38,666 bases of DNA from Candidatus Moraniibacteriota bacterium (GTDB lineage: Bacteria > Patescibacteriota > Minisyncoccia > Moranbacterales > UBA1568): the NCBI GenBank assembly GCA_013334575.1, contig JAAXXG010000006.1, positions 3,185 through 41,850 of the forward strand. Reading direction: 5' to 3'. Of the stretch, positions 903 to 22,797 are shown one piece after another (position 1 is the first letter of the stretch; every line of letters starts with the position of its first letter). Position numbers and translations under genes: made by a program. Below the pieces are notes generated by a model. That model was not told the origin of the DNA. It saw only the letters and a program-made list of their open reading frames with translations, and ran no database searches.

Positions 903-3065
903 ATGAAAAACAGCGAACCCGTAAACGGTACCCGTCGGCCGTATCGCCGGATCGCGATCGAGGTCGCATCTGTGGTTGTTCTGGCGCTTTTCGCGTTAGC
1001 ACTGAGCCTTATCGGCGTGTTTCTGTTCGGAACGCCCGATCCGCGGACCCTGCCGGAATTGTCGCTCGCGCAGACGTCGTGTCTGTACGACCGTACCGGA
1101 ACGCACGAGCTGTACTGCCTTCACGGAGAGGAAAACCGGAAAGTGCTCGTGCACGGCGATATTCCGGATGTCGTCCGTCGAGCGACGGTCGCAGCCGAGG
1201 ACGAGTCGTTCTATCGGCATCACGGGATCGATGCCGCAGGGACGGTTCGGGCGCTTCTCGTGAACCTGAAGGCTGGAAAGATCGAACAGGGCGGCTCGAC
1301 CATCACGCAGCAGCTTGCGCGCAACGCCTACTATACCCGCGAGCGGACCGTGAAGCGGAAACTGCTCGAGAGTCTGATGGCGCTGAAGATAGAACTTTTC
1401 TTCTCGAAGGACGAGATTCTCGACATGTACCTCAACCGCGTGCCGTACGGAGCCAATGCGTACGGAATCGCCGCTGCCGCCGAGACCTATTTCGGTAAGC
1501 CGGCTGCGGATCTCACCCCGGACGAGGCCGCGCTCCTGGCCTCGCTCACCAAGGCTCCGAGCGCTTATTCTCCGTATGTCGCCTCGAAAGGTACGTCGCT
1601 GTCCCAGCGCGATACGGTCCTGTCGCGGATGGCCGAGGCCGGATATCTGACCGAGGAGGATCTTAAGGCCGCGAAATCCGCGGATACCGTTTCGAAGGTC
1701 CGGCCGTTCTTGCAACCGATCCAGGCGCCTCACTTCGTTTTCTACATATTGGAAGGCTTGGAGAAGACCTATGGGCGCGACGCGCTTGAGGCGGGAGGAT
1801 GGAAGATCCTGACGACGCTCGATTGGGAGAAACAGCGGTTGGCCGAACAATCCGTCAGGGAAGGGGTCGTGCGGAACCGTTCGGCGAATGCCTCGAACGC
1901 GGCGCTGACGGCTATCGATCCGAAGACGGGAGAAGTGCTTGCGATGGTAGGCAGTCGTGATTTTCATGACACGTCGATCGATGGCGAGGTGAACGTCGCG
2001 CTGCGGCCGAGACAGCCCGGATCGTCATTCAAACCGATCGTCTACGCGGCGGCATTCGAGAAGGGATTTCAGCCGGAAACGCTCCTGGTCGACAAGCCGA
2101 TCGATTTCGGACCGGACGGGACCGGGAAGGAGTACGTGCCGCAGAACTACGACGGTCAGTTCCGGGGAGTCCTCTCCATGCGGGAGACGCTCGCACAGTC
2201 CCTTAATGTTCCCGCGGTCGAGACACTCTATCTTGCCGGGATCGGTCGGACGATCGATTTCGCGCGACGTTTGGGAATTACCACGCTTGGAAATCCCGAT
2301 CGGTACGGACTCGCGCTCGTGCTCGGCGGCGGAGAGGTAAGGTTACTCGACATGGTGACCGCGTTCGGCGTCTTCGCGAGGGAAGGGGTCCGAGCCGAGA
2401 CGCACGGCGTACTGCGTATCATCGGTCCCGACGGCGCGCGCGTTGATGCCGACGGCCCGGCCCCGGCATCCGTGCTCGATCCGGAGGTGGCACGCAAGGT
2501 CGCCTCGATCATGTCGGACGACTCCGCCCGGGCGCCGGTTTTCGGCGCGCGCGGGCCGTTGACCCTTCCGGATCGGCCCGTCGCGGCCAAGACGGGGACG
2601 ACGCAGGATTTTCATGATGCCTGGACGGTCGGATATACGCCGTCCTTGGTGGCGGGTGTCTGGGTCGGCAACAACGATAACGCGCCGATGAAGGCGGGAT
2701 CCGACGGCGTGTATGTGGCCGCGCCCATCTGGCACGCATTCATGGCGGCTGCGACGTCCGGTGCGCCGGTCGAGGCTTTTACACCATATTCGAAGGTCGA
2801 GTCCGACAAGTTGCTGCTTACCGGTCTTCGGGACGAGAGTGCCATCGAATATTTCGATCTTCATAGTGGAAAGAAACTGTCTCCGGAAAAGGCGGCGAAG
2901 AAGGATCCTTCCCGGGTCCGCGTGTCGTATGGTGACGGCGGGAAGTGCATCCTCTCGTACGTGAACAAGGACGACCCGCTCGGCCCGACGCCACCGGACC
3001 TGTCCGACCCCATGATCCCACGCTGGGAGGCTCCGGCACCGGAAGATTTTTCGAAGGGGGAATAA
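903..3065 (+). CDS. Penicillin-binding protein 1A-type transglycosylase/transpeptidase (start 864 also possible)
   Basis: N-terminal TM; GT51 motifs EDESFYRHHGID, GGSTITQQLARN, KRKLLESLMALKIE; transpeptidase motifs RQPGSSFKPIVYAAAFE, KTGTTQDFHDAW. Confidence 0.93.
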   Translation: MKNSEPVNGTRRPYRRIAIEVASVVVLALFALALSLIGVFLFGTPDPRTLPELSLAQTSCLYDRTGTHELYCLHGEENRKVLVHGDIPDVVRRATVAAEDESFYRHHGIDAAGTVRALLVNLKAGKIEQGGSTITQQLARNAYYTRERTVKRKLLESLMALKIELFFSKDEILDMYLNRVPYGANAYGIAAAAETYFGKPAADLTPDEAALLASLTKAPSAYSPYVASKGTSLSQRDTVLSRMAEAGYLTEEDLKAAKSADTVSKVRPFLQPIQAPHFVFYILEGLEKTYGRDALEAGGWKILTTLDWEKQRLAEQSVREGVVRNRSANASNAALTAIDPKTGEVLAMVGSRDFHDTSIDGEVNVALRPRQPGSSFKPIVYAAAFEKGFQPETLLVDKPIDFGPDGTGKEYVPQNYDGQFRGVLSMRETLAQSLNVPAVETLYLAGIGRTIDFARRLGITTLGNPDRYGLALVLGGGEVRLLDMVTAFGVFAREGVRAETHGVLRIIGPDGARVDADGPAPASVLDPEVARKVASIMSDDSARAPVFGARGPLTLPDRPVAAKTGTTQDFHDAWTVGYTPSLVAGVWVGNNDNAPMKAGSDGVYVAAPIWHAFMAAATSGAPVEAFTPYSKVESDKLLLTGLRDESAIEYFDLHSGKKLSPEKAAKKDPSRVRVSYGDGGKCILSYVNKDDPLGPTPPDLSDPMIPRWEAPAPEDFSKGE
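2996..3046 (+). repeat. 51-bp direct repeat, copy 1 (inside PBP1A C-terminal codons)
   Basis: ggacctgtccgaccccatgatcccacgctgggaggctccggcaccggaaga, identical to 4952-5002. Confidence 0.95.
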
Positions 3066-4003: not shown

Positions 4004-4162
4004 GAGAGTATCTCCTGGTTTTTATTGGAAAGGGACCGATTATTCTAGTTCTTCGAATTAGTATCGTCAACAAAAGTGACTAGTAAACAATAGTGCTGAT
4101 ATATGGTAATGACAATTATCTTTATTAAAAGCCATTTACAAGAGATAAATCATTTGATATAT

Positions 4163-4182
4163 TGTCGTCAGAAATATCGACA
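4163..4182 (+). promoter_or_regulatory. Putative TrmB-like regulator operator, site 1
   Basis: TGTCGTCAGAAATATCGACA; TGTCG/CGACA dyad; near-identical sites upstream of the two paralogous regulators. Confidence 0.65.
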
Positions 4183-4195
4183 TTATACGGATCAT

Positions 4196-4936
4196 ATGCA
4201 GGAGCGGGAAATCAGAAGGGTGTTAAAGGGGTGTGGTTTGGACGAAAAGGAAGCGGCGCTTTATCTTGCGGCGCTCAATCTTGGAGAGGCGGGAATGTCG
4301 GAACTTGCGGCGGAAGCCGGCTTGAAGCGCGGTACCGCCTATCTGATCTTCGAGTCGCTCGAGAGGAAGGGGCTCATGGGGAGTTTTAGGATGCGTTCCG
4401 GATTGCGTTTTGTCGCGACGGAGCCGGAGGCGATACTTTCCGGGGCGGAACATCGTCTGAACGAATTGCGGGGAATCATGCCGGAACTGATCGCTCTCTC
4501 GAAGAAGGATGAGGATGAGCCGAGAGTGACCTTCTATCGCGGCGAGGCCGGTTATATCGCTGCCATAGGGGATTCGCTTCGGAAACCGGGTTCGGTTCTT
4601 CGGCATGTCGGATCCATCACGGAAGCGCATCTGGTCTATGGGGATTACGATACGTCGGTTTATGTTCCGGAGCGGATAAGGAAGAATATCTCTATCCGTT
4701 GCCTGTACACCGCTGACACGTCGCGTGCCATTCGCGAACGGGACCATGTCTCGGAGCGCCGAGAGATCAAGTATCTTCCCGCGGGGTATCCGCTAAAGAC
4801 GGCTATGCTTATCTATGACGGTCATGTCGTCATTACCGGGGCCGCGAAGGAGCTCGTGACGGTTGTCATCGAGAGTCCCGCACTTGCCGAGAGCGAGCGG
4901 CTCAGATTCGATCTTCTGTGGTCGTTACTTCCGTGA
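4196..4936 (+). CDS. TrmB-like (sugar-specific family) HTH transcriptional regulator, paralogue 1
   Basis: N-terminal wHTH LKGCGLDEKEAALYLAALNLGEAGMSELAAEAGLKRGTAYLIFESLERKGL; alignable by eye to 7459-8196 and 9045-9770. Confidence 0.82.
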   Translation: MQEREIRRVLKGCGLDEKEAALYLAALNLGEAGMSELAAEAGLKRGTAYLIFESLERKGLMGSFRMRSGLRFVATEPEAILSGAEHRLNELRGIMPELIALSKKDEDEPRVTFYRGEAGYIAAIGDSLRKPGSVLRHVGSITEAHLVYGDYDTSVYVPERIRKNISIRCLYTADTSRAIRERDHVSERREIKYLPAGYPLKTAMLIYDGHVVITGAAKELVTVVIESPALAESERLRFDLLWSLLP

Positions 4937-4951
4937 TGGAAGGTGTATCGG

Positions 4952-5002
4952 GGACCTGTCCGACCCCATGATCCCACGCTGGGAGGCTCCGGCACCGGAA
5001 GA
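4952..5002 (+). repeat. 51-bp direct repeat, copy 2
   Basis: Identical to 2996-3046. Confidence 0.95.
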
Positions 5003-7458: not shown

Positions 7459-8196
7459 CTATTCGAGATCCTTTCCCGCATCCCAGACGAAGTCAAAGAT
7501 GGGTCGAAGCGATCGGGCGAGCTTCTCTGATTCGATGAGGACGAGGAATGGAACGTCCTGAAGAGAAGATATGGAAATCTTATTTTCCGTTATGACGATG
7601 TCCGTGTCGAAGGGGCGAGGAAACATCCGCACCGTCTGCCCGACATCTTGGAGCTGTTTTCCGTATGCTATATCCGTTAGAGATTCGGGGATCATGTGCC
7701 GGACATTCGCGGTGTAGTGGCGTTTTTCGTATCCGGAAATCCAACGGCTAACGGTTCCGGGAAAGTTGCGTTCGATTTCGGCATAAGAGGATATGCAGAA
7801 CGATTCTTTCGCGTAGTTGAGGCTTTCGTAGACGTTGAGTATGCCGTCCCGGTCGGCAATATAGTGAATTTTAGGTGCGGCTCCGCCCTTGTTTCCCATT
7901 GTCTGCAGATAGGGGATCATGTCGGCAAAATTCCTCAAATCGGTTTTTTTTCTGATCAGGATGACGGAGGGATCGACAGCCTGATATTGGCGGACTTTTT
8001 TTCCGGGAGAAAGCGTTATCAGGCCTTTTTCCGCAAGTTCTTCCAGAATAAGGTAGGCGGTCGGCCGCTTGATGCCGGAACGCTTCGCGACGGACGTGGC
8101 GCCTGTTTTTCCGGATTCTAGGAGGGCAAGATAAATCAGGGCTTCCTTTTCAGAAAAACCGACCGATAAGAGAAGTTTAGAGAGGTCCGTATCCAT
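7459..8196 (-). CDS. TrmB-like HTH transcriptional regulator, paralogue 2
   Basis: MDTDLSKLLLSVGFSEKEALIYLALLESGKTGATSVAKRSGIKRPTAYLILEELAEKGLI. Confidence 0.82.
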   Translation of the reverse strand: MDTDLSKLLLSVGFSEKEALIYLALLESGKTGATSVAKRSGIKRPTAYLILEELAEKGLITLSPGKKVRQYQAVDPSVILIRKKTDLRNFADMIPYLQTMGNKGGAAPKIHYIADRDGILNVYESLNYAKESFCISSYAEIERNFPGTVSRWISGYEKRHYTANVRHMIPESLTDIAYGKQLQDVGQTVRMFPRPFDTDIVITENKISISSLQDVPFLVLIESEKLARSLRPIFDFVWDAGKDLE

Positions 8197-8225
8197 GCTT
8201 CTATGGTAACATTTCCAGAATAAAA

Positions 8226-8245
8226 AGTCAATAATTCTGACGACA
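8226..8245 (-). promoter_or_regulatory. Putative TrmB-like regulator operator, site 2
   Basis: Minus strand TGTCGTCAGAATTATTGACT, 17/20 identical to site 1. Confidence 0.6.
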
Positions 8246-8300
8246 TAATAAATACGTTGCTTTATTAAAGCATAAAATAATAGTATTAATAGCAATATTA

Positions 8301-8329
8301 TGGACACGAATGAAAAATCTTGCTATGAT
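8301..8329 (+). promoter_or_regulatory. Putative sigma-70 promoter for 8386-8904 (TGGACA-N17-TATGAT)
   Basis: tggaca cgaatgaaaaatcttgc tatgat, with a perfect palindrome just downstream. Confidence 0.6.
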
Positions 8330-9044: not shown

Positions 9045-9770
9045 CTATTCGAGCGAATCCCAGTGGACGGAGAAGATGCTCCTGAGGGTGTCGTGAATCT
9101 TGCGGCTTTCGATGAGGACGCCGGTCATCTCTTCCCAGGAGAGGATGGCGATCGAATGCGTGCCGAAGATGAGGATGTCCGATTCGAGCTTGAGCGTGCC
9201 GGAGGGATCGAGCCGGGTCAGGTGAAAGTCCGGCTGGTCGCCCCGGTGGTACTTCTTCGTGCCCGGGGTCTCCGGAAGGATTGCCTGGGTGAAGATCCGA
9301 AGCTCCTTGCGCTTCGGGCGATAGGCGTCGTCGAACCAGTCGCCTTCGGCTTGGAACGACCCTTCGGAGAGCCAGGCGTGGATACGGCTGCCGGGATACT
9401 TGAGCGTTTCCCGATAGAGGTCCTTGATACCTTCCAGCCCTTCGAAGTAAAGCACTTTCGGCTTGCGGTCGATGAAATTGGCGATGGCGAGGAGCGAGGG
9501 GAGGATAGACTGGGCGATACGGGCCGATTCGGCGGTCATTTCCTCAAGTTTTCGGGGGTCTTCGGCACGATAAAGAGTCTTGTTTCCGTTTCGGACCGTC
9601 TTTATGAGTCCGCGCTCGCGGAGGCTGTCCATGAGGCCATAGACGGTAGTGCGCTTCATCCGAGCCTTCTGTGATATGCGGGCGACGGACGCTTCGCCGA
9701 GCTCGAGTGCCGAAAGGTATATCCGGGCCTCGTTTTCCGAAAGTCCGAGTCTTTTGAGCTGGGGAATCAT
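9045..9770 (-). CDS. TrmB-like HTH transcriptional regulator, paralogue 3
   Basis: MIPQLKRLGLSENEARIYLSALELGEASVARISQKARMKRTTVYGLMDSLRERGLI; shared C-terminal layout with the other two. Confidence 0.82.
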   Translation of the reverse strand: MIPQLKRLGLSENEARIYLSALELGEASVARISQKARMKRTTVYGLMDSLRERGLIKTVRNGNKTLYRAEDPRKLEEMTAESARIAQSILPSLLAIANFIDRKPKVLYFEGLEGIKDLYRETLKYPGSRIHAWLSEGSFQAEGDWFDDAYRPKRKELRIFTQAILPETPGTKKYHRGDQPDFHLTRLDPSGTLKLESDILIFGTHSIAILSWEEMTGVLIESRKIHDTLRSIFSVHWDSLE

Positions 9771-9781
9771 AGTGGAAAATT

Positions 9782-9799
9782 TGTCGTCATATTCCGACA
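9782..9799 (+). promoter_or_regulatory. Putative TrmB-like regulator operator, site 3
   Basis: TGTCGTCATATTCCGACA. Confidence 0.62.
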
Positions 9800-9970
9800 A
9801 AATAATGATAGCCTGTGATTCATAAAAAATCAATTTTATAAGCCAAAAATAAGCAATAGAAAAAAGAGGATATTTAAATTCGTTATTTTCGAACGAAAGA
9901 ACCGACAAACGGTTTACGATTCAGGCAGTTGTTTACGAGAAATATTCATCAACTGCAACAAGGAGGGGAC

Positions 9971-19557: not shown

Positions 19558-21708
19558 ATGGCTCAAGCGTCGAGAGGGAAGGTTGCGAAGAAGGCGGCGG
19601 GGAAGGCGAAGTCTGCGGTTAAGCGGTCTGCCGCGAAGGTCTCGAAGCCGGCGAAGAAGCCGTCGGCGTCCGGATTTCGCCGGATCGTGAAGCGCGATGG
19701 GCGGACGGTTCCGTTCGAGGAGGGGAAGATCGTCTCGGCGGTGGCGAAGGCCTTCGAGGCGACGGGGGAAGGGAGTGCCGCCGAGGCGAAGCGTGTCGCG
19801 GCGAAGACGGCCAGTCTCCTGCGGAAGGCGTTCAAGGGAGGGCTCATGCCGTCGGTCGAGGACGTGCAGGATACGGTCGAGAAGGTGCTCATGATCCTCG
19901 ACTTCGAGGAGACTGCCAAGTCCTATATCCTCTACCGCGAGGAGCGTCGAAAGCTCCGCGACATCGAGAAGTCGCTCGACGACTCGTCCGACCTGGTCGA
20001 CAAGTATCTCTCGGAGATGGACTGGCGGGTCAAGGAGAACGCGAATATGGCGTATTCGCTCCAGGGCCTCAATAACTACATCGCCTCCATCGTCAGTTCC
20101 CGCTACTGGATGAACCGGGTGTATCCGGCGGAAATCCGCAAGGCGCACGAGGGCGGAGACGTCCATCTTCATGACCTCCAGCTCATCTCGGCATATTGTT
20201 GCGGATGGGACCTGCACGACCTCATTCATCGCGGCTTCACCGGGGTTCCGGGGAAGATCTCGTCCGGTCCGGCCAAGCACTTCAGCGCGCTTCTCGGCCA
20301 GATGGTGAACTTCATCTATACCCTTCAGGGCGAGGTGGCCGGTGCTCAGGCCTTCTCGAACTTCGACACGCTTCTCGCGCCGTTCGTTCGTTACGACAAG
20401 CTTTCCTATAAGCAGGTCAAGCAGGAGATCCAGTCGTTCGTGTTCAACATGAACGTCTCGACCCGCGTCGGGTTCCAGACCCCCTTCTCCAATATCACGC
20501 TCGACATCACCGCGCCGAAGGCACTCGCGGGTCAGGCGGTCGTGATCGGGGGCGAGCCGAAGCCCGAGACCTACGGCGACTTTCAGGACGAGATGAACAT
20601 GATCAACCGCGCGTTCGCGGAGGTCATGATGGAAGGGGATTCGAGCGGGCGCGTCTTTACCTTCCCGATTCCGACCTACAACATCACCAAGGACTTCGAC
20701 TGGGAGGACGAGCGGTTCAGACCTATATGGGAGATGACCGCCAAATACGGCATTCCCTACTTCGCGAACTTCGTGAACTCGGACATGGACCCGGAGGACG
20801 CCCGTTCCATGTGCTGCCGGCTCCGGCTCGATAACCGCGAACTGCATAAGCGCGGCGGCGGGCTCTTCGGCGCGGCTCCGCTCACGGGCTCGGTCGGCGT
20901 GGCGACGATCAACATGCCGCGCATCGGCTATCTCGCCAAGGATCAGCAGGACTTCTTCGACCGGCTCGGTCGGAATATGGACCTCGCCAAGGAGAGTCTC
21001 GAGATCAAGCGCAAGCTCGTCGAACAGCTTACCGACCGCGGGCTCTATCCGTATACGCGGTTCTATCTGGCGCCGATCAAGCAGCGTCGCGGCGAGTACT
21101 GGGCGAACCACTTCTCGACCATCGGCCTTATCGGCATGAACGAGGCGATCGTAAACCTCCTCGGGACCGATATCACGACGAAGAAGGGGCAGGTGTTCGC
21201 CGAGAAGGTGCTTATGTGGATGCGCAAGCGCATCATCGGCTACCAGAAGGAGACCGGGAACCTCTATAACCTCGAGGCGACGCCGGGAGAGGGGACCTCG
21301 CACCGGCTGGCGGCGATCGACCGCGAGAAATTCGGCGATATCCGTTTCGCGAACGAGGAGGCGGTCCGTCGGCATGGCGCGCAGCCGTACTACACGAACT
21401 CATCGCAGCTCCCCGTCGGCTTTACGGACGATATCTTCGAGGCGCTCGATCTGCAGGACAGACTCCAGACGAAATATACCGGTGGGACGGTGCTGCACGG
21501 CTTTCTCGGCGAGCGTATCTGGGACGTGGACGCGACCAAGAACCTGGTACGCCGCATTGCCGAGCAGTACAAGCTCCCGTATTTCACGCTCACTCCGACC
21601 TTCAGTGTCTGTCCGGTTCATGGGTACATCGCCGGTGAGCACCATGTCTGCCCGCAGTGCGTCGCGGACGCGGGACGCAGCGAATATGCGGTCATAGGGG
21701 AGGAGTAG
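19558..21708 (+). CDS. nrdD: Anaerobic (class III) ribonucleoside-triphosphate reductase, catalytic body without the glycyl-radical domain
   Basis: ATP-cone (FRRIVKRDGRTVPFEEGKIVSAVAKAFEATG), NMNVSTRVGFQTPFSNITLD, FPIPTYNITKDF, CCRLRLDNRE, GSVGVATINMPRIGY, TPTFSVCPVHGYIAGEHHVCPQC, then TAG. Confidence 0.93.
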   Translation: MAQASRGKVAKKAAGKAKSAVKRSAAKVSKPAKKPSASGFRRIVKRDGRTVPFEEGKIVSAVAKAFEATGEGSAAEAKRVAAKTASLLRKAFKGGLMPSVEDVQDTVEKVLMILDFEETAKSYILYREERRKLRDIEKSLDDSSDLVDKYLSEMDWRVKENANMAYSLQGLNNYIASIVSSRYWMNRVYPAEIRKAHEGGDVHLHDLQLISAYCCGWDLHDLIHRGFTGVPGKISSGPAKHFSALLGQMVNFIYTLQGEVAGAQAFSNFDTLLAPFVRYDKLSYKQVKQEIQSFVFNMNVSTRVGFQTPFSNITLDITAPKALAGQAVVIGGEPKPETYGDFQDEMNMINRAFAEVMMEGDSSGRVFTFPIPTYNITKDFDWEDERFRPIWEMTAKYGIPYFANFVNSDMDPEDARSMCCRLRLDNRELHKRGGGLFGAAPLTGSVGVATINMPRIGYLAKDQQDFFDRLGRNMDLAKESLEIKRKLVEQLTDRGLYPYTRFYLAPIKQRRGEYWANHFSTIGLIGMNEAIVNLLGTDITTKKGQVFAEKVLMWMRKRIIGYQKETGNLYNLEATPGEGTSHRLAAIDREKFGDIRFANEEAVRRHGAQPYYTNSSQLPVGFTDDIFEALDLQDRLQTKYTGGTVLHGFLGERIWDVDATKNLVRRIAEQYKLPYFTLTPTFSVCPVHGYIAGEHHVCPQCVADAGRSEYAVIGEE

Positions 21709-21714
21709 TGTCCG

Positions 21715-22029
21715 ATGGGGCCTGTCATCGTCATAAATCGTAAGAAAATAATACACAAACCTATGCAGACGCACATCTGCCACGACTGCGGGAAGAAGCT
21801 CGGGAAGGGTGACAAGTACATGCCGTACGAGGCCGGAGGGAAGTCCTTCGTGAAGTGCGAAGCCTGCCATCAGGCGGATCCCGTCCTCCGGAATTTCCAG
21901 GAGGCCGAGGTGTACTCGCGCATCGTGGGGTATATCCGTCCCATCAAGCAGTGGAACAAGGCGAAGCGCCAGGAATTCGGGGACCGGACCACTTTCGTTC
22001 CCTCGATGGCCGCGTCCTGCGATTGCTAA
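21715..22029 (+). CDS. Separate glycyl-radical domain subunit of class III RNR, with Cys-rich N-terminus
   Basis: EAEVYSRIVGYIRPIKQWNKAKRQEFGDRTTF is the NrdD glycyl-radical C-terminus; CHDC..CEAC; SD GGGGAGGAG at 21697-21705 overlaps the end of nrdD. Confidence 0.9.
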   Translation: MGPVIVINRKKIIHKPMQTHICHDCGKKLGKGDKYMPYEAGGKSFVKCEACHQADPVLRNFQEAEVYSRIVGYIRPIKQWNKAKRQEFGDRTTFVPSMAASCDC

Positions 22030-22095: not shown

Positions 22096-22797
22096 ATGCT
22101 GCTTGCCGGATACCAGAAGATGACGCTGATCGACTATCCCGGAAAGATTGCCTCGACGGTCTTCACCGTGGGATGCAATTTCCGCTGCCCGTTCTGTCAC
22201 AATCCCGAGCTCGTGGACCTTGCCGGGGTGGAGACCGCGGCGTTCCGCGGCAAGGACCGGGAATTTCTCGATTTCCTTGCGAAACGGAAAGGGAAGCTCG
22301 ACGGAGTCTGCATTACGGGAGGGGAGCCGACCGTCCAGCCGGATATCGTCCCGTTCATGCGGGCGATCAGGTCGATGGGCTTTTCCGTGAAGCTCGATTC
22401 CAACGGTACTCGGCCCGAGGTGCTGGGGGAGATTTTTCGCGAAGGACTTGCCGACTACGTGGCGATGGACATCAAGAACGGAATAGACCGTTATGCGGAA
22501 ACCGTCCGGGTGCCCGTGGACGAGTCGAAGATCCGGGAGAGTATCCGTCTTATCATGGAAAGCGGGATCCCGTACGAGTTCCGGACGACCGTCGTACCCG
22601 GTATACATACGGACGACGATTTCGACGGTATCGCCGATCTTATCGAGGGCGCCGATGCCTACTATCTTCAGGAGTTCCGTGACGTGAAGATCCTCGCGCC
22701 GGAACTGGTCGCGCTTGCCCGGGGGGCGTCCGTCGACCTCGATCGGGCCGCCGAGCGTATGCGCCGGTCGGTCGGGACGGTCGGGATACGGAAATGA
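22096..22797 (+). CDS. nrdG: Anaerobic RNR-activating protein (radical SAM)
   Basis: GYQKMTLIDYPGKIASTVFTVGCNFRCPFCHNPELVD; CITGGEPTVQPDI. Confidence 0.92.
   Translation: MLLAGYQKMTLIDYPGKIASTVFTVGCNFRCPFCHNPELVDLAGVETAAFRGKDREFLDFLAKRKGKLDGVCITGGEPTVQPDIVPFMRAIRSMGFSVKLDSNGTRPEVLGEIFREGLADYVAMDIKNGIDRYAETVRVPVDESKIRESIRLIMESGIPYEFRTTVVPGIHTDDDFDGIADLIEGADAYYLQEFRDVKILAPELVALARGASVDLDRAAERMRRSVGTVGIRK

Follow-up and report, generated by a model that had tools for sequence, protein, structure and literature searches.

A probable two-polypeptide class III ribonucleotide reductase with an autonomous glycyl-radical domain in Candidatus Moranbacteria

The DNA stretch analysed here, 38,666 nucleotides from a member of Candidatus Moraniibacteriota and called the window below, very probably encodes a class III ribonucleotide reductase made of two polypeptides, in which the glycyl-radical domain is an autonomous protein, probably a spare copy at first, that has become obligatory. 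The genome to which the window belongs is 99.28% complete and contains one NrdD only, a second intact nrdD, which the sequence-only reading of this locus had named as refuting evidence, having not been found in it. No class I or class II ribonucleotide reductase was found in this genome either, NrdD being the only reductase found, and therefore the two-part enzyme must work, unless the cells live on imported deoxynucleotides.

Organisation of the nrdD locus

The nrdD body (19558–21708, + strand) encodes 716 amino acids of a class III catalytic subunit that lacks the glycyl-radical loop, and ends at TAG 21706–21708. It matches Pfam NRDD (PF13597) with an E value of 4.6e-181 over positions 1–528 of the 562 in the profile, and NCBIfam PRK08270 with 1035.7 bits. 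An ATP-cone allosteric domain spans residues 42–131 (19681–19950, +; PF03477, 1.1e-22), and the finger-loop Met-Cys-Cys (MCCR; 20809–20817, +), read from the sequence, marks the region of the catalytic thiyl cysteine, as it does in the other NrdD bodies where the motif was read. The zinc motif CPVHGYIAGEHHVCPQC is retained at the C-terminus (21610–21660, +) and the stop follows soon after it, the chain ending CPVHGYIAGEHHVCPQC...GEE. This motif is present in 69 of 71 truncated and in 83 of 83 continuous NrdD bodies.

Downstream of the stop an ORF in the same frame (21715–22029) contains EVYSRIVGYIRPIKQWNKAKRQEFGDRTTF, as the sequence-only reading had pointed out, and matches NRDD profile positions 508–562 with an E value of 1.6e-12. 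Because the body covers profile positions 1–528 and the small ORF 508–562, the two ORFs jointly make up one NrdD. The small protein has its own Cys-rich region, consisting of a zinc ribbon, CHDC...CEAC (21778–21867, +), whose residues C6, C9, C32 and C35 are invariant in three alignments, and a C-terminal Cys-Asp-Cys tail (22018–22026, +); between them lies the glycyl-radical loop EVYSRIVGYIRP (21907–21942, +), with the putative radical glycine encoded at 21928–21930. The nrdG gene that had been reported to follow is found at 22096–22797 (+), linked downstream of the small gene, and encodes a radical-SAM activase of the NrdG2 type (TIGR02495, 5.3e-61, above the cut-off). An NRDD barrel, a finger-loop cysteine and a linked NrdG are therefore all found here as in class III enzymes; the glycyl-radical loop, however, is on a separate ORF and not on the same chain.

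The start of the small gene had been placed at ATG 21715, which we revise. This ATG is not conserved, and the segment 21715–21762 is non-coding in composition, with a GC content of 0.38 and a GC3 of 0.44 (small gene 0.61 and 0.86, nrdD body 0.61 and 0.84). In the relatives, a stop codon lies 3–13 codons upstream of the ATG that aligns with window position 21763, and this ATG is often preceded by an A-rich string such as aaacataaacatATG. Judging from the composition of the leader and from these upstream stops, the small protein is MQTHICHDC..., 88 amino acids long, encoded at 21763–22029 (+) and conserved in the same and the sister genus. The gene begins 54 nt past the nrdD stop, behind an AT-rich untranslated leader (21709–21762, +). 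The string GGGGAGGAG, on which translational coupling by a Shine-Dalgarno sequence had been argued, is indeed present at 21697–21705, but it consists of Gly-Glu-Glu codons and is 58 nt away from the conserved start. Nor is overlap-based coupling between nrdD and the small gene the rule: in 84 of 84 loci of the order the two genes run on one strand, the small one 3' of nrdD, separated by 9–409 nt (median 80) and never overlapping.

In the window genome both ORFs are in one frame, separated by a single stop, which could mean that the TAG is suppressed and that NrdD is one read-through protein made by recoding. We consider this extremely improbable, given that in each of the seven near relatives that have the pair the frame of the small ORF differs from that of the body, and that across the order the small ORF often lies behind several stops. 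Furthermore, the leader is without coding composition, and several other window genes end in TAG, which opposes a reassignment of this codon. A recoding element or intron also finds no backing, as no Rfam match was obtained at the locus up to E 0.1; with a gap of 54 nt, an nrdD split by an intron or intein was likewise rejected.

Elsewhere in the window, an identical direct repeat of 51 bp is found at 2996–3046 and 4952–5002, near the ends of unrelated genes, and three paralogous TrmB-type regulator-like proteins, identified by reading their translations only, are encoded within 6 kb (4103–4936, 7459–8307 and 9045–9908).

Distribution and conservation of the split

The split, together with the same small protein, is seen in the remaining five species of the genus and in both species of the sister genus in which nrdD is present. 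Because seven relatives keep the same pair, the split is not due to chance, and the idea of a separate, conserved glycyl-radical subunit rather than a mere nonsense mutation, put forward from the sequence alone together with a proposal to look for the same split in NrdD homologues, is borne out. Relatives with a continuous ORF had been named as evidence that would count against it; the seven relatives are split, and one genus of the same family has a continuous NrdD (G013, L009). The latter is what could be expected if the window carried a sequencing or assembly error, a fresh nonsense mutation or a pseudogene. The probability of such an event is nevertheless negligible, the relatives having already refuted it, as the split recurs in independent assemblies of the same and the sister genus with differing intergenic sequences, both parts are under purifying selection, and no other reductase was found in the genome.

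Specifically, pairwise dN/dS values of the small protein are approximately 0.04–0.23 within the genus of the window and mostly 0.03–0.15 in clades with a complete NrdD as well, and those of the NrdD bodies are 0.02–0.10, with dS near saturation in several comparisons. All 88 small proteins have the Gly of the RxxG[YF] motif. A class I/II catalytic subunit was absent from 18 of 57 split genomes of the order, including that of the window and one that is only 70% complete.

Three further genera show a split of another kind, type B, in which a small protein of 62–72 amino acids has CEVWTRVMGYHRPVSHFN and no zinc ribbon. Over loci L010–L022 and L090–L099 the ribbon-less loop protein is 54–72 amino acids long, with the sequence CEVWTRVMGY..RPVS.FN.GKK, and the corresponding bodies form a single, long-branched clade, which may have had a separate origin.

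At the level of the order, 131 genomes were searched with a loop alignment and 115 matched, and 80 stretches were fetched and classified; named matches place the clade in Candidatus Moranbacteria (Moraniibacteriota), Patescibacteria. Three states were found: a continuous NrdD only; a continuous NrdD with an intact loop accompanied by a small ribbon-plus-loop protein encoded between nrdD and nrdG; and a truncated NrdD with the small protein. A third type of small protein, type C, has the loop RVVGFHTP. Some truncated bodies retain remnants of the lost domain. At locus L087 the body ends ...CPKCLIEQSCEIYSRVL, with the stop at the position of the radical glycine, which resembles the oxygen-cleavage product known for pyruvate formate-lyase; together with its sister L088, which has a complete NrdD and the small protein, it forms a natural before-and-after pair. 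At L133 the truncated body ends EQSSTVYLKVVMED, and L133 and L144 both have ends of the form ...EQSSTVYLKVV....

In a tree of bodies built without the radical domain, type B forms one clade and type C another, and the type A splits occur at scattered positions. In the Moranbacteria tree at least nine changes are needed to account for loss of the internal loop, a number that is approximate because this quick tree, which lacks a firm root, has several weak forks; placing all split rows in one clade was rejected (AU p 5.8e-71). One row, L151, was labelled continuous-only in the first tree, although the small gene is present in the same genome at the end of a different contig (L152). Bodies were truncated on several occasions, and the remnants, taken with the quick tree, suggest that the change ran from spare to obligatory.

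Proposed mechanism and relation to known enzymes

We propose that the NrdD body would supply the ATP-cone, the ten-stranded barrel and the MCCR finger loop, and that NrdG would set the radical on Gly56 of the 88-amino-acid protein. This protein would dock on the body and insert its loop into the barrel beside the finger-loop cysteine, in the manner of the C-terminal domain of ordinary NrdD. Probably it was at first a spare, exchangeable copy beside a complete NrdD, able to replace a radical domain lost by oxygen cleavage, a replacement of the kind that YfiD performs for pyruvate formate-lyase. With the small protein able to act in trans, the loop of the body itself would have become dispensable and would have been lost several times, including here.

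A read-through fusion was modelled with AlphaFold, the TAG being read as Gln solely to obtain a single chain for folding. The model has a mean pLDDT of 84.4 and a pTM of 0.79, with values mostly of 82–94 in the small part and below 50 in the linker, and its best PDB matches are all NrdD. Folded alone, the small protein has a mean pLDDT of 75.7, with approximately 69–78 in the loop region. The higher pLDDT of the small part in the predicted fusion would fit docking, towards which the fusion itself biases the model. In the NrdD of Prevotella copri the radical domain is mobile and is ordered only in the active monomer, where Gly711 is placed next to Cys416 (PMC11226230), and this mobility makes action in trans plausible.

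The C-terminal tail is a recurrent feature. Cysteine occurs within the last six residues in 45 of 51 type A small proteins (at least two cysteines in 35) and in 12 of 12 of type C, compared with 13 of 74 continuous NrdD proteins. The MCCR finger loop is compatible with formate or thioredoxin as reductant (PMC9669993), and one may speculate that the Cys tail serves as a redox relay like those of class I and class II enzymes.

The comparison with YfiD/GrcA made in the sequence-only reading was apt, as here too a glycyl-radical domain is encoded apart from its enzyme. Spare-part repair of a glycyl-radical enzyme has been demonstrated only for pyruvate formate-lyase, YfiD/GrcA and T4 Y06I being the only validated spare parts, although others are considered possible for further glycyl-radical enzymes (PMC8683613). 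These proteins are likewise small, stand-alone C-terminal glycyl-radical domains, which act in trans on pyruvate formate-lyase, one encoded by a host and the other by a phage (PMC8683613). Unlike YfiD/GrcA, the small protein described here belongs to the NRDD family, has a zinc ribbon of its own, is usually encoded in an nrdD–nrdG operon and is obligatory in split lineages. We infer that it works like GrcA while being a member of the NRDD family. The extra zinc ribbon and the Cys tail, unusual in ordinary NrdD, could instead point to service for another glycyl-radical enzyme or to a regulatory or zinc-sensing role, which we regard as very improbable: the loop is NrdD-like by the NRDD profile, the only one matched above the cut-off, whereas Gly_radical, the family of the pyruvate formate-lyase C-terminus, was not matched at E values up to 1. 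Moreover, the gene is flanked by nrdD and nrdG, and in the genomes searched whose body lacks a loop, no second loop copy was found.

With ordinary NrdD (T4, Thermotoga maritima, Prevotella copri) the enzyme of the window shares the ATP-cone, the barrel, the finger-loop cysteine, a zinc-bound C-terminal glycyl-radical domain and the NrdG activase, but its loop resides on a second polypeptide, which has a further zinc ribbon and, often in such proteins, a C-terminal Cys pair. The split class II enzyme NrdJa/NrdJb (PMC4520616; C-terminus, PMC9669993) is likewise divided into two chains, the second of which bears a zinc finger; it is B12-dependent, however, and its second chain has no glycyl radical. 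In Jug phages (PMC12363816) nrdD is likewise distributed over several ORFs, but those fragments are rejoined by group I intron splicing, whereas in the window there is a 54-nt gap, no intron match and an own start for each part. NCBIfam and PHROGs hold no family model for the small protein, which gave only weak matches there to the C-terminus of whole NrdD models, and the open-access literature, a scope in which a subscription paper could be missed, yielded neither a spare part for NrdD nor a split glycyl-radical domain. The two polypeptides would offer a clean system for studying radical placement and transfer.

Stand-alone domains beyond the order and in viruses

Ribbon-plus-loop small proteins not linked to nrdD were also found in Desulfobacterales, a Smithellaceae bacterium and other Patescibacteria. 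Where the small protein is unlinked, an NrdD body is present as well in 13 of 13 genomes examined, and in 11 of these it has its own loop; the remaining two (L178, L181) yielded NrdD bodies on which no loop was found. In Desulfuromonadales, a spirochaete, Bipolaricaulota, Buchananbacteria and Magasanikbacteria the truncated body is followed by a loop-only small protein, and each genome searched contains a single loop copy. Of 381 evenly sampled Patescibacteria genomes, 78 gave a loop match, in approximately 43 of them within an open frame of less than 120 amino acids, as counted from the loop frames alone, whatever the neighbouring body.

These findings bear on whether the small protein was ever a spare. 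It could be purely a fixed fission subunit, the copies beside a complete NrdD being redundant duplicates, as it is by logic obligatory in split genomes and as the loop-only splits show that fission also occurs without a ribbon. This is unlikely, though it deserves to be taken seriously, since the small protein is under purifying selection also where the loop of NrdD is intact (dN/dS mostly 0.03–0.15), unlinked copies accompany NrdD in distant groups, and viruses carry copies without a body. The domain as an originally exchangeable copy is the reading we prefer.

In IMG/VR, the gene for the stand-alone domain occurs without a body in 72 of 80 fetched loci, each comprising at most 3.5 kb on either side. 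Thirty virus records, including ANMV-1 (38 kb) and contigs of 49–91 kb, were searched whole, and an NrdD body was found in one and in none of the other 29, many records being fragments. A viral search with the small protein of the window gave no match, but a diverse alignment used as query did. One viral contig has a terminase gene nearby. Such a virus-borne part would, by analogy, serve the reductase of the host. More broadly, NrdD glycyl-radical domains could form a widespread, undescribed exchangeable-cofactor system, by which bacteria would restore oxygen-cleaved NrdD, on which several lineages would have come to depend, and of which viruses of anaerobes would supply a copy for the host's reductase in viral DNA synthesis; we hold this to be evenly poised. 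Candidate spare parts would thus be available for an essential DNA-synthesis enzyme, with a series from spare to obligatory subunit and with virus-borne copies.

Among named phage records only ANMV-1 and one continuous NrdD were found. The ANMV-1 protein AJP62049 (L159; KP703175.1, 2854–3291) is a stand-alone protein of 144 amino acids with a CHDC...CPKC ribbon and the loop RIVGYLRPV, like the small protein of the window in ribbon and loop and unlike it in being virus-borne. It is annotated as 'anaerobic ribonucleoside triphosphate reductase', and in the original description, where it is called nrdD, it serves as the argument for a virus-encoded, oxygen-sensitive reductase (PMC4372165). No NrdD body was found in the 38-kb record, which holds the domain alone, and the published statement is therefore weakened; the annotation of small proteins named as whole reductases, that of ANMV-1 included, is to be corrected to the glycyl-radical domain only. 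A phage NrdD (L160; MT835493.1, 1599–4031), of approximately 810 amino acids, has a glutaredoxin-like domain (TCPNCKM...) past the glycyl loop.
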